Assembly: GCF_009932555.1 (NCBI RefSeq)
Contig: NZ_BLJO01000004.1
Span: 81,073-136,939 of the forward strand
Direction of reading: 5' to 3'
DNA: 55,867 bases
Source: Steroidobacter agaridevorans
GTDB taxonomy: Bacteria > Pseudomonadota > Gammaproteobacteria > Steroidobacterales > Steroidobacteraceae
Shown: positions 13,047-20,177 of the stretch, in pieces
How positions within the stretch are numbered: the first letter of the stretch is position 1
Layout: every line of letters starts with the position of its first letter
The notes under the pieces: model-generated
Databases searched by the model: none
The model's input: the letters and a program-made list of their open reading frames with translations, nothing else
Told to the model about the DNA's origin: nothing
Position numbers and translations under genes: made by a program

Positions 13047-14900
13047 CTAGGCGTGGCCGACGTTACGCAGCTCGTCGTCGATCGGATCCGGCCGCTCGGC
13101 GTCGACCGTCTCGCCATCGTAGGGCATCACACGATCGCGGCCGGCAGCTTTGGCTCGATACAGGGCAGCGTCCGCGTGCGCGAGCAGCTGACGCAGCTCA
13201 TAGCCGGACTCTTCGGTCGACGTGACGCCGAAGCTGCCGGACACCGAGCAACGCACCCCGTCGTATTGGGGCTCGATGGCGCTCAGCGCGACTCGCAGGC
13301 GCTCGGCGCGTTGCTTCGCGTCCTCCAGACCGCAGCCCGGCAGCACGATGCCGAATTCTTCGCCGCCGACGCGTCCGAAAATATCACTGACCCGCAGATG
13401 GCCCTGGCAGGCGATGACAGCCTGGCGCAGCACGTGATCGCCCGCGGCGTGGCCGAAGCGATCGTTGATGGCTTTGAAATGATCCAGGTCGCACAGAACC
13501 ACGCTGGCCTGCTGTTGCGACTTGCGCGCCGCTTCGAGCACGGTTTCGGCAAGTTGAATGAAACGCGGACGGTTGGCGATGCCGGTCAGGCTGTCCTCTT
13601 GCGACAGTTTCATGAAGTGCAGCTGCGAGCGCTTGGTGCGATAGGCCCACAGCGCGATGAATACCAGGACCAGCAGCAACAGCGCGATATACAAGCGGCT
13701 GGTCTCGGCAGCCTTGCCGTCCAGCTCGCGCTGCAGCTGCAACAGTTTGTTTTCCTGGTTGAGCGCTTCCAGCTGCGACTTGGTGGTCAGGGTGTTCGAT
13801 TTGACGCGCTCGTAAGCCAGCTGGCGTGCGGTGACGTCATCGAGATAAGCCTTGTCGGCGGCGGCGGATTTCTTCAAGTAGCCGATGGCGCTGCCGATGT
13901 CGCCTTGTTTCTCGGACTCTTCGAAGAGCACGCGATAGGCGCCGACCAACGGCTGGGTAAATTGATCCTTGACGCTGTGCTCGACGGCTCGCAACGCCAT
14001 GCGCTGTGCGTTCACTCCGGCGCCGCGCTGCTGATATGCCTGAGCCAGCAACGATTCCCACTCCGAGACGCCGCGCGGATAGCGCGTTTGCTCCATCTCA
14101 CCATAGTGCCGCTCGAGCAGGCTGATCGCCTCATCGATGCGATGCTCACGCAACAACAAGCGGGCATGGGTCATGCGGATGCCGTTCGCGGCCAGCGATT
14201 CACCCTGTTGCAGGCAGGCGTCGATGGCGGCGGGGATGGCGGGAGCGTCAGCCTTGATCCGCTTGGTCTTGCATAGGGTGTCGAGGCGGATCTGCTCGCC
14301 TCGGCACACGCCGCGGCCACGAGCGTTCTCTTTGACGACCTGCTCGGCGTAGTGAATGCCGAGGTCGTATTCGCCGACCAGGACGTAAAGATCGGCCGCG
14401 ACGGACATGCCCTGCAGTCGGGCGTCCTTATCGGTGACCTCGGGCAGCTTGTTCAACAGTTTGTTGAGTTGCAGGAACGCGCCTTCGTATCGCGTCGCCA
14501 ATACCTGGACGTTCGTGGCGGTCACGCTGGCGCGGAATTGGAGCGTCGGGTCGCTGGCCTGATCGGCGAGCGACTCCAGCATGGGAATCGCGGCGGCGTA
14601 CTCACCCGTGTACACCAGACGCCAGGCGTGTAGATATTGGAGATGCTCGCGTTGCTGGCCCGACAGAGCATCGGGCTGGGCCTGCAGTTGATCGATCAGT
14701 CGGGCGAATTCGGCGGGGTCGACGCTCTTGACGGCGTCAGCCCGCTGTAACATGTCGGCGAAGTCCTCGCGGTCCGCCGCCGGCAGCGGTCCGCCGGCGA
14801 ACAGGCACAAGCAAGCTACTCCGCCCAGCAGCCGGTGCCGGACGGAATGCTTGCTGACATTGGTTTGCTCAGCCGGCGCGGGCGACACGGCGCTCGCCAC
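13047..14900 (-). CDS. TPR-containing membrane diguanylate cyclase (GGDEF)
   Basis: About 617 residues. After an N-terminal signal or anchor (RHRLLGGVACLCLFAGG), a long alpha-helical TPR-type region runs to about residue 350. A coiled coil leads to one membrane span (LYIALLLLVLVFIALWAYR, about 400-418). The cytoplasmic C-terminal GGDEF domain carries the active-site GGEEF near 512-516, preceded by an RVSD inhibitory site. It therefore should make cyclic-di-GMP and be product-inhibited. The GTG at 14900 overlaps the end of the small precursor-like gene by 32 bases; another GTG lies at 14888. That overlap suggests translational coupling with the putative borosin genes upstream. No EAL domain is present. 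Confidence 0.9.
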   Translation of the reverse strand: MASAVSPAPAEQTNVSKHSVRHRLLGGVACLCLFAGGPLPAADREDFADMLQRADAVKSVDPAEFARLIDQLQAQPDALSGQQREHLQYLHAWRLVYTGEYAAAIPMLESLADQASDPTLQFRASVTATNVQVLATRYEGAFLQLNKLLNKLPEVTDKDARLQGMSVAADLYVLVGEYDLGIHYAEQVVKENARGRGVCRGEQIRLDTLCKTKRIKADAPAIPAAIDACLQQGESLAANGIRMTHARLLLREHRIDEAISLLERHYGEMEQTRYPRGVSEWESLLAQAYQQRGAGVNAQRMALRAVEHSVKDQFTQPLVGAYRVLFEESEKQGDIGSAIGYLKKSAAADKAYLDDVTARQLAYERVKSNTLTTKSQLEALNQENKLLQLQRELDGKAAETSRLYIALLLLVLVFIALWAYRTKRSQLHFMKLSQEDSLTGIANRPRFIQLAETVLEAARKSQQQASVVLCDLDHFKAINDRFGHAAGDHVLRQAVIACQGHLRVSDIFGRVGGEEFGIVLPGCGLEDAKQRAERLRVALSAIEPQYDGVRCSVSGSFGVTSTEESGYELRQLLAHADAALYRAKAAGRDRVMPYDGETVDAERPDPIDDELRNVGHA

Positions 14901-15138
14901 CGTCTTCGGGCTGCTGCTCTTCGGGCTCTTCGTCTTGCGGAGCGTGGACCATGCAGCAGACGTTTTTGCTGGCGCCGATCAACTCCTCGAGCTGACCAGG
15001 CTGCTGCTGCACGATGGCGGCCTGCACGGCCGGCGCGACGCCCGCCTGCGCCAGCTCCCGGGCCAGTTGCTCGCCGGTCAGCGCTTGCAGCCGCGAGCTG
15101 CGACCTATTCTTTCCAACAGATCCACGACATTCGACAC
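14869..15138 (-). CDS. Putative borosin precursor peptide (split type)
   Basis: An 89-residue peptide starting at a GTG with GAGGAGG eight bases ahead. Residues 1-57 form a small helical leader-like domain: MSNVVDLLERIGRSSRL, then alternating Ala/Leu-rich helices ending QLEELIGAS. This pattern (LG/IG at about 11-12, a hydrophobic ladder, a terminal EL-IG) resembles, as I remember them, the borosin-binding domains of split borosin precursors such as Shewanella SonA. A short hydrophobic segment, KNVCCMVHAP (58-67), would be the core, followed by an acidic tail DEEPEEQQPED. The methyltransferase and a GNAT gene lie just upstream on the same strand. A Nif11-type leader is the main alternative, but no GG cleavage site is seen. 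The function is inferred from sequence pattern and context. Confidence 0.65.
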   Translation of the reverse strand: MSNVVDLLERIGRSSRLQALTGEQLARELAQAGVAPAVQAAIVQQQPGQLEELIGASKNVCCMVHAPQDEEPEEQQPEDGGERRVARAG

Positions 15139-15353
15139 GATGCGCTCCTCCTCTCCCCAAAATTGTTGTTGAACGACGGGCTGCCTCGTGCAGCTTGGGT
15201 TGTGACAAGCCTAGGACAATCGCGACCGACCGGCTCTCGAACGCTCCACAGAAAAGTCAAACGGCGCCGGCTTCGGGCCACGCTCCCGACTTAACAGAAT
15301 GAATTATGCCTGTTTCGAAGGCGAAGGGATGAGTCGGGATTCGTCGGGCGTGC

Positions 15354-15932
15354 CTAGCGCACGTTCCGGAAGGCGGGCGGGGGCGACCACGAGTCACGAC
15401 GAACCGACCAGGCATTTCCTTGCCCATCCTCTTGCCCATTCCTTTGACAAGCTCCGTCCGCCGCAGCTTCGCTGCCACGGCGTGCGAAGCCTAAACCAAG
15501 CACAGTCCGATGCACAGCTACATGGTCGATCGCGAACTGCACCCACAGCTCATCGACTGGCAGATGTGTGAACACATGGTGGACGAGCCCGCCGAAACCT
15601 TCCTTGCAATAACCCTGGGCGCGCGCCGACTGGATGAACATGATCCCGCCCTGAACGCTGCGGTTCACGGTGTCGAAATCCTGCAGACTGCAGATGCCGA
15701 CATCGGTTTGCGACGACTTCTCGATCACGGTCAGAAACAGCCGCTCGATGGGCTCACGCTGCATGCCGGCGAGCGCGATTCGAAAACTTCTGGCGGCACG
15801 CTCGGGGGCGAGGGGCGCACCGATAAAGCGCATGGTCTCGGCGTCCGTATACAGATGTTCATAGAGTGCCGCGTCAGCCGCGGCCATGGGACGCATGCGC
15901 AGCCTGTCCGTCTCGACTGGAAACACGTGCAC
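15354..15932 (-). CDS. GNAT-family acetyltransferase, possibly frameshifted at the C-terminus
   Basis: 192 residues in one frame. The N-terminal half is a normal RimJ/RimL-like GNAT: VETDRLRMRPMAAADAALYEHLY, then the beta-strand IGICSLQ-like segment and the acetyl-CoA loop region SARAQGYCKEGFGGLVHHVF. It acetylates an amino group of an unknown acceptor. The start is a GTG six bases beyond the methyltransferase stop codon, so the two are cotranslated. After LGLGFARR (about residue 143) the sequence turns odd (Gly/Asn/Gln-rich). The +1 frame there gives a more plausible basic tail, KLRRTELVKGMGKRMGKEM, ending near 15257. A one-base indel near 15460 is therefore possible. Confidence 0.72.
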   Translation of the reverse strand: MHVFPVETDRLRMRPMAAADAALYEHLYTDAETMRFIGAPLAPERAARSFRIALAGMQREPIERLFLTVIEKSSQTDVGICSLQDFDTVNRSVQGGIMFIQSARAQGYCKEGFGGLVHHVFTHLPVDELWVQFAIDHVAVHRTVLGLGFARRGSEAAADGACQRNGQEDGQGNAWSVRRDSWSPPPAFRNVR

Positions 15933-15937
15933 GGAGT

Positions 15938-16738
15938 TCAGCCTTGGGTCGCCAGCTCGCGGTCGAGCGCCGACAGGCGCTCTCGGATGTGATGATCGGG
16001 TTGCAGCGGTTGTGCCGGCGGAATCACCAGCGTGAAGTGCATATCCGCCTCGGCCGTGGGCAGTTCCGCCAGCGGCACGCGGATGATCTTCGGGCGGAAG
16101 GTGGGCAGCGTCGCGGCCCGATACAAGATCACTTCATGATCGAGCGGATAGTCGCGGCTCAAGACATCGACCAGCACCTGCCGGTAAGCGGCGCCGGTGG
16201 CAAAGCGCGTGAACGACTGGTCGCCCGACAGGCCCACCTGCCACAGGATCAGGTAGGCGGCCGTGTCCAGGCGCCGCTGGTTGAACATGAACTGGCTGGC
16301 TTCGTAATGCTGGCAGCCATATTTGCCGGGATCGAAGCCCAGATCGGCATACATGCAATCCGCCGCCGATACGCCCGGCTCCATATGCGCTGCATAACCT
16401 TCGCTGCGCGCGGTCTCGATGGCTTTGTGAGTGGGCCAGGCGAATACGCCGGGATGGCCGTAGAAGGCGGCACAGACGCGTTTGCCCGCGCGCACCTCGG
16501 TCAGCATCGTCTCTACCATTTCACGGTAGGTCTGCATGCGTGACTTACCTTCGCGATACAACGACTGCAGGCTGCGCACGTCGCGGTTCATTCGGGCAAC
16601 CCACATTTCGATGATGCCATCCGACAGCCCGGTGAACACGACATCGGCGTTCTGGATGTGATCGCGCGCCAACGGCGTGAGGTGCGCTCCCAGGGTCATC
16701 CCGATCCCGACGCACACCAAACTTCCCGCTGGTTTCAT
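15938..16738 (-). CDS. Borosin-type peptide alpha-N-methyltransferase
   Basis: A 266-residue tetrapyrrole-methylase-fold enzyme that resembles the catalytic domain of the fungal omphalotin enzyme OphMA and bacterial split borosin enzymes, not cobalamin-pathway enzymes. Matches include LYREGKSRMQTYREM (61-74), YGHPGVFAWPTHKA (93-106), ARSEGYAAHMEPGVSAADC (110-128), ADLGFDP and GCQHYEASQF (141-150). Tyr61, Arg67 and Tyr71 align with the OphMA catalytic Tyr66, Arg72 and Tyr76 as I recall them. The enzyme uses SAM to methylate backbone amides of a precursor peptide. It lacks the C-terminal clasp and core found in OphMA, so it should act in trans. The ATG at 16738 is preferred to the upstream extension (to 16948), which overlaps the GST gene. 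Confidence 0.85.
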   Translation of the reverse strand: MKPAGSLVCVGIGMTLGAHLTPLARDHIQNADVVFTGLSDGIIEMWVARMNRDVRSLQSLYREGKSRMQTYREMVETMLTEVRAGKRVCAAFYGHPGVFAWPTHKAIETARSEGYAAHMEPGVSAADCMYADLGFDPGKYGCQHYEASQFMFNQRRLDTAAYLILWQVGLSGDQSFTRFATGAAYRQVLVDVLSRDYPLDHEVILYRAATLPTFRPKIIRVPLAELPTAEADMHFTLVIPPAQPLQPDHHIRERLSALDRELATQG

Positions 16739-18112: not shown

Positions 18113-18901
18113 CTAGGATACTCCGACGATCATTTGCTCCACCACCCAGCGCTTGAGCAGTCCCGCCGCCTGCACCGGCACGGCATCGGCGTCATGCCAG
18201 GCGCACAGCGTGTCACAGAGCATTTCGAACGAGCCGCCGCCGCGCATGACTTCCAATGCCGCGACTTCATCCGCTCCGAGCGAGCGGTACTGAGTTTTCA
18301 GTCCCTCGCGCCAGATCAGCCAGGACTGCGCTTCATCGAGTTCGACGCACTCGGGCGGCGAGTCATCCGCCGACAGCGCCTTGAATATCACCGGCGCATT
18401 GGTGCGCATCGCCAGGATCTGCACCGTCGGATGAAACTGAAACGTCAGAGTGGGCCATTGCTCGGGCGCGATCGCGGCCAAGGCATCGATGCCGACCGGT
18501 TCGGCATCGGCGCCGTCGAAGGCGGCCGCGACCGACCATTCCCATGTCGCCAGTTCGGCGAGCCAGGGTTGGTCCGGGAACGACTGGCGCAGGAGTTGCG
18601 GCATCCGATCGCCGAACCAGCGAATCGATGGATAGCTCGACGGGCACAGCTCGATATATTCGCGGGCTACCTCTGCGAACTGTTCTTTGCCCAACAACGC
18701 TTGCAGACGAGGCAGCGTGCTGGCGAGCGCTTCGGTCAAACGCAGCCGATAGGCTTCCGAATAAATCGCCAGCCGCAGGCTCGCAGGGACCTCTGGCGAG
18801 CCTTCGACCGCAGTAACGATGCGCTCGTGGCCATGCATGACGAGACGTTGAAAGTCCCGCTGCAACTCGGCCAGCTCGGCCGTGTCGAGTTGGGCGCTCA
18901 T
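18113..18901 (-). CDS. bufC: BufC/HvfC-type RiPP partner protein
   Basis: A 262-residue protein of the DUF2063/HvfC family: [20 protein letters not shown], then the Tyr- and Arg-rich core [15 protein letters not shown] and W-rich segment [17 protein letters not shown]. Members of this family contain the RiPP recognition element that carries the peptide substrate to an MNIO (DUF692) enzyme. It overlaps the BufB gene by four bases (ATGA), so the two proteins should form a complex. The partner peptide is encoded just upstream by the bufA-like gene. The family was once annotated as a putative DNA-binding domain; that label is not supported by this context. Confidence 0.88.
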
Positions 18902-19749
18902 GCGGCGGACTTCGCTCGTTGCGCGGACGTAGTGATATCGCGCGCTCGGTCCAGTTCGGCGAGCAGCTCATCCAGCTCGGGAATATTGTCGTCGCGCTCG
19001 ATCATGGTCGAGAGCGCCCCGAAGCGTTCGACCGCTGCGTGAAACAGTTGCCACACCGCTTCGCAGACCGGTTCGTCATGCGTGTCGATGAGGTAGTTGC
19101 CCATGTTCCGATGGCCGGCGAGATGGAACTGTTGAACCCGCTCCACCGGGATGCCGCGCAGATAGGCCAGCGGATCGAAACCATGATTCACGCTGCTGAC
19201 GTACACGTTGTTCACGTCGAGCAGCAGGTGACAGTCGGCGCGCTCGGCGATTTCGCGCAGGAATTCCCATTCGGTCATGTCGCAACGGCTGAAACTCACA
19301 TAGCTCGATACGTTTTCCAGCACCAGCCGGCGGCCGAGCCGCTCCTGAACGGCGGCGATGCGCGACACGACATGTCTCAACGCGGTTTCGGTAAACGGCA
19401 TCGGCATCAGGTCGTGCAGGTTCACGCCGTCGACGCCGGTCCAGCACAAATGATCGGAGACCCACGCCGGCTCGACACGGTCAGCGAGCGCTTTGACCTC
19501 GCGCAGATACGTTTCATTCAATGGGTCGGTGCTGCCGATGGACAGCGACACTCCATGCAGCACGATCGGATAGTCGGCGCGCAGCCGTTCCAGGTAATGC
19601 AGCGGCTTGCCGCCAGGGAGCAGGTAGTTCTCGGTCAGCGCTTCCAGCCAGCTGACGCTGCCGCGGCGCTCGCCGAGCAGGGCGTCGTAATGAGTCGGGC
19701 GGACGCCGAGCCCGAAGCCTAATGAGGGGTGAGGGGACGATGTGGGCAC
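18898..19749 (-). CDS. bufB: BufB, MNIO (DUF692/UPF0276) multinuclear iron oxidase
   Basis: 283 residues, the UPF0276/DUF692 TIM-barrel family. It has the pattern [66 protein letters not shown] and FHLAGHRN, with the many His/Asp/Glu residues that bind two or three irons. MNIO enzymes modify cysteine residues of peptide substrates, in bufferin systems converting core cysteines to thiooxazole-type rings that bind copper. Start is a GTG with a poor ribosome site, so translation may depend on readthrough from the upstream bufA transcript. The stop overlaps bufC. Confidence 0.92.
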
Positions 19750-19775
19750 TGAACACTCGTGGACTGATCAGGAAA

Positions 19776-19805
19776 CGGCGCGGTCGCTGACGGAAGACCG
19801 CGCCG
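19776..19805 (-). terminator. Intercistronic hairpin between bufA and bufB
   Basis: A perfect 10-bp stem (CGGCGCGGTC and its complement) with a ten-base loop lies between bufA and bufB. There is no clear T-run on the minus strand. A partial terminator or RNA-processing hairpin that raises the precursor-to-enzyme ratio would fit a RiPP operon; this is inference. Confidence 0.5.
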
Positions 19806-19838
19806 CCCTGACCCTATCAGACCGGGCCTCGAGCTGAA

Positions 19839-20096
19839 TTATTTCTTCAGCTTGGCCTTGGCGGCGTCGCACTCAGCCTTGCTCAGCATCAGGAAGCCCT
19901 GACCTTTGCAGGCGTTCTTGCCGGCGCAGGCATTGGCCGCCGTGCCGCAGGCGCTGGTGCCTTTGCACGCGTTCACGCCTTCGCATTTCACCTTGGCTTC
20001 ATCGGCCGCATTGGCAGCGGTCAACGGCGCGCTGCTGAACATCACCGCGGCCGCAGTGGCCAGAGCGAGGGTAGAAAGTTTCTTGCCGTGGGTCAT
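19839..20096 (-). CDS. bufA: BufA2-type bufferin precursor peptide
   Basis: 85 residues from the ATG at 20096. The GAGGA site is nine bases upstream; an earlier ATG at 20105 is too close to that site. There is a Sec signal peptide (about 1-30, ending APLTAANA), then a compact Cys-rich region with six cysteines in patterns such as CKGTSACGTAANAC and CAGKNACKGQGF. Repeats of C(K/A)G are typical of bufferin precursors that are modified on Cys by BufB/BufC. The product is then exported and binds copper in the periplasm. It is transcribed as the first gene of the bufA-bufB-bufC set. A terminator for the BON gene sits just upstream, so bufA probably has its own promoter in 20100-20175. Confidence 0.87.
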   Translation of the reverse strand: MTHGKKLSTLALATAAAVMFSSAPLTAANAADEAKVKCEGVNACKGTSACGTAANACAGKNACKGQGFLMLSKAECDAAKAKLKK

Positions 20097-20177
20097 CGAT
20101 GCCATTCCTCATGGAAAGTGCGCTTCGAAGGCGAAGCGCAGGTTTATACGCAGCCTGGCATCAATCGGATTCACATA

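Follow-up and report, generated by a model that had tools for sequence, protein, structure and literature searches.

What does a four-gene locus on the minus strand of the 8.0 Mb genome of Steroidobacter agaridevorans produce, and which of its genes belong together? The locus lies at 13047-16738 of a 55,867-nucleotide stretch of contig NZ_BLJO01000004.1 (the window, to which all coordinates refer), where a preliminary description had proposed a split borosin cluster, that is, a methyltransferase that N-methylates the backbone of a separately encoded peptide, together with a GNAT acetyltransferase. All three of these genes were found where it placed them, all on the minus strand, and it missed a fourth, for a tetratricopeptide repeat (TPR) diguanylate cyclase at 13047-14900 that overlaps the precursor gene. 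Judging by sequence, we read the enzyme-precursor part as very probably a type IV split borosin cassette, here in a GNAT-bearing variant, and the TPR-GGDEF gene is its most constant neighbour, more so than the GNAT gene. The features are as follows.

15938-16738, minus strand: predicted borosin-type alpha-N-methyltransferase (M), ATG start, 266 amino acids; PDB SonM E 2.8e-74, Pfam TP_methylase E 7.1e-21
15354-15932, minus strand: predicted GNAT N-acetyltransferase (Acetyltransf_3), GTG start, 192 amino acids; Pfam PF13302 E 1e-18
14869-15138, minus strand: predicted borosin precursor peptide (A), GTG start, 89 amino acids; homologues in 77/81 loci
14974-15138, minus strand: predicted borosin-binding domain (BBD), precursor residues 1-55; five AlphaFold2 helices, SonA chains in Foldseek
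14938-14967, minus strand: predicted core KNVCCMVHAP, precursor residues 58-67; immediately follows the BBD, like the core of SonA
14872-14937, minus strand: acidic tail and C-terminal RVARAG, precursor residues 68-89; low predicted local distance difference test (pLDDT) scores, acidic run in alignment A1
13047-14900, minus strand: predicted TPR-sensor diguanylate cyclase, 617 amino acids; GGDEF E 1.9e-41, predicted sensor half, model pLDDT 87.7

In transcription order the genes run M, GNAT, peptide and GGDEF protein. The GNAT gene does sit just downstream of M, at a spacing of 5 bases rather than the six first counted, and the GGDEF reading frame starts inside the peptide gene, overlapping its 3' end by 32 bases. 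Between 12900 and 17500 we found no sigma-70-like promoter, and terminator-like sites there showed no excess over shuffled sequence.

Is M a peptide methyltransferase, or an ordinary cobalamin or siroheme methylase lying beside a chance open reading frame? Pfam PF00590 spans both kinds of enzyme and so fits either reading, and the difference lies in the closer comparisons. Searching the PDB with M returned 34 matches, the top 25 of which were all borosin enzymes (E 2.8e-74 to 1.2e-45), led by SonM and followed by dbOphM, OphMA and MroMA, with the best cobalamin-type match, a precorrin-2 methylase, coming next after those 25 at E 0.01. M also matched nine models for cobalamin, siroheme and YabN proteins in NCBIfam, all far short of their cut-offs (22.1 bits versus 246 for CobJ/CbiH and 47.6 versus 525 for YabN). 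The four OphMA-type motifs quoted in the preliminary description are present, and in the alignment SonM residues Y58, R67, Y71, Y93, F99 and E146 correspond to Y61, R67, Y71, Y93, F99 and E146 of M; the first four are described as examined by kinetics in PMC8429565. With 266 residues M comes close to the ~263 expected in type IV split borosins, whose precursor is a separate protein, as it is here. The genome encodes one enzyme of this type, its other match being partial (residues 2-132, 30%, E 5.8e-4, within a 480-residue frame), and its nearest counterpart in a search of named genomes, from which the organism's own record was possibly missing, is that of Peristeroidobacter agariperforans at 96% identity. 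As a sequence-based assignment, a SonM/OphMA-type peptide N-methyltransferase is well supported.

Whether the 89-residue peptide is a real gene was evaluated across relatives of M, whose loci are numbered L001 onward. Sample 1 comprised the best 80 of 95 relatives (81 loci with our own); sample 2 comprised 60 loci from the order of genome G348, hand-picked across the full score range from ~143 matches listed, in an order where 94/394 genomes carry M. The two samples overlap in part, L157 apparently being the same locus as L074 (same peptide). Iterated hidden Markov model (HMM) searches of the open reading frames in the 81 loci recovered precursor homologues in 77 and none in L022 and L048, whose contigs end at the enzyme, or in L075 and L078; 76 of the 80 relatives carry the homologue within 3.3 kb of M on the same strand, so that the peptide does stay near the enzyme. 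Nei-Gojobori ratios of nonsynonymous to synonymous substitution (dN/dS) against the four relatives L001-L004 were 0.11-0.27 for precursor residues 1-72 and 0.05-0.08 for the enzyme. Across the same four relatives the predicted core is almost invariant, with 13-15 of 15 positions identical over residues 58-72 (KNVCCMVHAPQDEEP). In these sequence comparisons the low dN/dS and the near-identity of residues 58-72 mark the peptide as a genuine gene subject to purifying selection.

The likeness of this peptide to SonA, the Shewanella oneidensis borosin precursor, emerges from profiles. Nothing in Pfam or NCBIfam matched the precursor up to E 1, and a profile of 31 precursor relatives without any SonA-type rows retrieved SonA from the PDB at E 2.1e-5, with the next entry at 0.26; a profile of 84 relatives, two rows of which were SonA-like, retrieved it at E 3.3e-8. 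The AlphaFold2 model has helices at residues 2-13, 15-19, 22-31, 36-43 and 47-54 followed by a flexible remainder, with pLDDT below 50 at residues 71-83 and 87-89, and SonA is described in PMC8429565 as having the same anatomy of a five-helix BBD and a flexible remainder. Profile and model thus support homology between the precursor N-terminus and the SonA borosin-binding domain, the kinship that the preliminary description had suspected. Given the conserved precursor, a profile that finds SonA without having contained it, and the gulf between the SonM and cobalamin scores, a tetrapyrrole methylase beside a chance reading frame is very improbable. The preliminary description had expected its Cys-Cys core to be unusual; in alignment A1 the cores are hydrophobic, mostly with one or two cysteines, and most rows have an acidic run after the core, so that Cys-containing cores are common in this subfamily.

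What, then, is the overlapping gene doing in the cassette? Its 617-residue product begins with a hydrophobic segment (predicted signal), continues with helical repeats over residues ~47-397 and, by hydropathy, a predicted transmembrane helix at ~401-420 that is flanked C-terminally by Arg and Lys, and ends in a GGDEF domain with a GGEEF sequence and an RVSD I-site-like motif. Pfam reports only GGDEF and no TPR in this protein, while relatives also match TPR. When the cyclase model was compared with known folds, the best 50 of 1463 matches were all GGDEF proteins, which do not address the sensor half, and the sensor sequence drew a single weak match from the PDB, an engineered repeat protein at E 0.099. 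The protein is predicted to be a membrane diguanylate cyclase with a periplasmic TPR sensor. Residues C199 and C229 of the sensor are invariant in 38/38 aligned cyclases and perhaps form a disulfide outside the cytoplasm.

Using an HMM of the sensor half, we found a TPR-GGDEF gene within 1.8 kb of M on the same strand in 73 of the 80 sample 1 loci. Six of the seven misses (L013, L018, L022, L028, L048 and L064) reach a contig end 0-2.1 kb past M, and L065 extends 6 kb past M yet has no match. Sample 2 was more varied, with 41 TPR-GGDEF loci, 8 with a TPR histidine kinase, 6 with a TPR protein without an output domain, 2 with kinases lacking a sensor match (L202, L203) and 3 without any of these (L170, whose contig ends soon after the precursor, L207, and L212, where by eye a secreted repeat protein adjoins M). 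Outside both samples, TPR hybrid kinases adjoin SonA-like peptides in L109 and L111. Over the two samples, 122 of 133 precursors are followed on the same strand by the sensor gene, at a median gap of 9 nt with mechanically assigned starts. On the opposite side of M, taken as a control, 8 of 73 loci have a GGDEF gene within 3 kb, and at least 5 of these genes are cassette parts themselves. Of 36 GGDEF matches in our genome one covers the entire sensor model and one more just its last part. The association is limited to part of the enzyme family, because the distant relatives L110, L112-L116 and L120-L122 match neither precursor nor TPR-GGDEF. Two of the TPR-GGDEF partners, at L195:6300-8060 (minus) and L201:3815-5563 (plus), score clearly lower for GGDEF (E 2.3e-22 and 3.7e-19) and are possibly degenerate cyclases.

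The arrangement of these genes also shifts between loci. M may precede the precursor-sensor pair, follow it, or, in Rheinheimera, follow the pair and a GNAT gene (order precursor, cyclase, GNAT, methyltransferase), and L056, L070 and L156 each hold two precursor-sensor pairs with a single M. One Rheinheimera locus carries three precursor-like genes in tandem ahead of one TPR-GGDEF gene (L076:2015-3594, plus strand).

The GNAT gene looks intact, its product aligning at the C-terminus with the GNAT C-termini of L001-L004. Enzyme-GNAT coupling, which the preliminary description could not recall as characterised, is real and at the same time optional rather than constant: GNAT is present in 23 of the 81 loci, and lies within 600 bases of M in 21/80 loci of sample 1 and 25/60 of sample 2. 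Such modest counts would suit a neighbour with another substrate, or an enzyme by which the producer protects itself through acetylating the mature peptide. Set against this, GNAT genes flank M upstream or downstream, on the opposite strand in L161 and L163, and in two genomes of the window's genus M and GNAT share one open frame, of 485 residues at L117:5934-7391 (plus) and 452 residues at L118:5453-6811 (minus), each with both Pfam domains. We consider the neighbour and self-protection readings unlikely; adjacency and fusion with M suggest that the GNAT probably acts on the cassette peptide. The precursors adjacent to the two fusions have a long Lys-rich C-terminal tail.

Raw counts associate GNAT with cysteine in the core (19/19 GNAT loci versus 10/57 others in sample 1, and 18/23 versus 5/19 in sample 2), with a crude core window that miscounts some rows (e.g., L155). 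On a quick tree with long branches, used solely for counting label changes, the GNAT label needs to change just 7 times, which leaves 1 independent pair if well supported branches alone are counted and 7 if all are. We do not claim a tie between GNAT and Cys cores, as it is confounded by kinship and the tree offers too few independent pairs.

How might the parts work together? By homology with SonM/SonA, the precursor would dock on the methyltransferase through its N-terminal five-helix BBD, and the flexible, hydrophobic KNVCCMVHAP would enter the active site, where backbone amides would be alpha-N-methylated with S-adenosylmethionine, presumably in the N-to-C direction. The GNAT would probably modify the same peptide, and its likeliest target would be the free amine of the core once the leader is removed, given that the lysine in the core varies (His in L002). 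The TPR-GGDEF membrane protein would act as a functional partner of the cassette and is most likely its tie to cyclic-di-GMP. Our basis is homology, gene order, conservation and predicted folds, from which we infer methylation of this peptide, its acetylation, leader removal, export and signalling, including who senses what.

A near-constant membrane signalling neighbour hints at a possible role of the peptide as a signal. On this reading, to which we give somewhat less than an even chance, the core, carrying methyl groups and, where a GNAT is present, an acetyl group as well, would be released outside the cytoplasm and read by the TPR domain of the gene that follows. The output of that domain would be exchangeable among diguanylate cyclase, histidine kinase and hybrid kinase, and the precursor-TPR pair would form the heart of the system with methyltransferase and GNAT as tailoring enzymes. 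An alternative that we hold to be possible, with equal caution, keeps the same borosin biosynthesis and has the TPR-diguanylate cyclase either sense some other cue and time the use of the cassette, or merely be co-transcribed; it would suit the precursor, which by eye has no secretion signal, and the TPR-histidine kinase loci, where only L208 of the 8 has a precursor HMM match. Against it stand the recurrence of the TPR part with varied outputs (GGDEF, histidine kinase, hybrid kinase or none), the doubled precursor-sensor pairs and the varying placement of M relative to the pair. We favour the peptide-reader role for the TPR protein because the sensor recurs while its output changes and because precursor-sensor pairs are doubled beside one M.

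Partial Mantel tests over 108 loci, whose permutations ignore phylogeny and linkage so that the result is a hint only, showed the BBD tracking M (0.41) and the core not tracking it (0.008, p 0.45), the core tracking the cyclase (sensor 0.21, GGDEF 0.22) and the BBD tracking the sensor (0.21).

Several observations weigh against these readings. With regard to the reader role, these same Mantel values do not single out a core-sensor contact, core-GGDEF, core-sensor and BBD-sensor being nearly alike. Neither a protease nor an exporter was identified, which counts against the reader role and the cassette reading alike. With regard to the cassette reading, precursor HMM matches in sample 2 lie near M in only 42/60 loci, and no GNAT lies near M in 59/80 loci of sample 1 and 35/60 of sample 2. 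A single-sequence PDB search with the precursor missed SonA, the homology being visible with profiles only; the precursor model is of moderate quality (mean pLDDT 67), and the SonA chains that Foldseek placed at ranks 1, 3, 5 and 34 of the best 50 rows (TMt 0.64-0.78) had E-values of 2.7-8.1, not significant by themselves. In the enzyme, SonM Q178, a reported core-interacting residue, is replaced by R178. As to the protease, shewasin A is reported to cleave a borosin precursor; our genome gave no match to pepsin-like proteases, with the search control likewise matching nowhere, so that this negative carries no information.

How does the cassette compare with known systems? SonM/SonA likewise pairs a separate methyltransferase with a short five-helix-BBD precursor and shares key active-site residues (PMC8429565), and the near-identical locus L186 has M, precursor and TPR-GGDEF genes in a row, with an enzyme nearly equal to SonM (E 2.4e-177) and a peptide near SonA (E 1.4e-37). 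Unlike SonM/SonA, our locus has a GNAT, a Cys-Cys core with an acidic tail, and Arg in place of SonM Q178; SonA itself ends a few residues past its methylated L63 and I65. The fused fungal borosins OphMA, dbOphM and MroMA have a homologous methyltransferase domain (E ~1e-45 to 1e-49) and carry the precursor within the enzyme chain, whereas ours is a separate gene. In the type scheme 0-X/XI of PMC11395268 the locus fits class 3, with BBD and core in one protein and the methyltransferase separate. The Figure 1 legend of that paper explains a GGDEF symbol, so a GGDEF-borosin link had already been drawn there; with L186 carrying the gene as well, the TPR-GGDEF link is not new. Open-licence literature, which does not include the papers defining types V-X and 0 (Imani 2022, Cho 2022, Lee 2024), yielded no borosin paper with c-di-GMP, diguanylate or tetratricopeptide and, with GGDEF, PMC11395268 alone; that paper was not among the matches for borosin with acetyltransferase, which do exist. 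The parts of the literature examined give no biological role for bacterial split borosins.

RRNPP cassettes such as Rap-Phr also have a precursor gene beside a TPR protein gene, as our locus does. Unlike in RRNPP systems, the TPR here is predicted to be extracytoplasmic and fused to GGDEF or kinase domains, and the peptide is probably modified. In RRNPP systems a cytosolic TPR protein binds an imported peptide; ours, with a hydrophobic segment before the repeats, a transmembrane helix after them and a GGDEF domain, is by prediction not cytosolic, though it may work alike.

Beyond the cassette, FAH, MAAI and bufferin-like neighbours keep the same arrangement only in L001-L004 among the 80 relatives and were excluded from it. 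A second cluster of the ribosomally synthesized and post-translationally modified peptide type, at 18113-20105 on the minus strand and in the same arrangement in L001-L004, encodes an MbnB/TglH/ChrH-family protein (PF05114, E 1.6e-110), a DUF2063 protein and an 88-residue Cys-containing peptide with a signal-like N-terminus, and presumably resembles what is called a bufferin locus.

A TPR sensor gene that accompanies these cassettes through changes of output domain and gene order suggests signalling by c-di-GMP or a phosphorelay. A signal role can be put directly to the test in Shewanella oneidensis, the organism in which the chemistry of SonM/SonA has been worked out. Fusion of the methyltransferase to the GNAT hints at a further tailoring reaction, in which acetylation would join backbone N-methylation on one ribosomal peptide.

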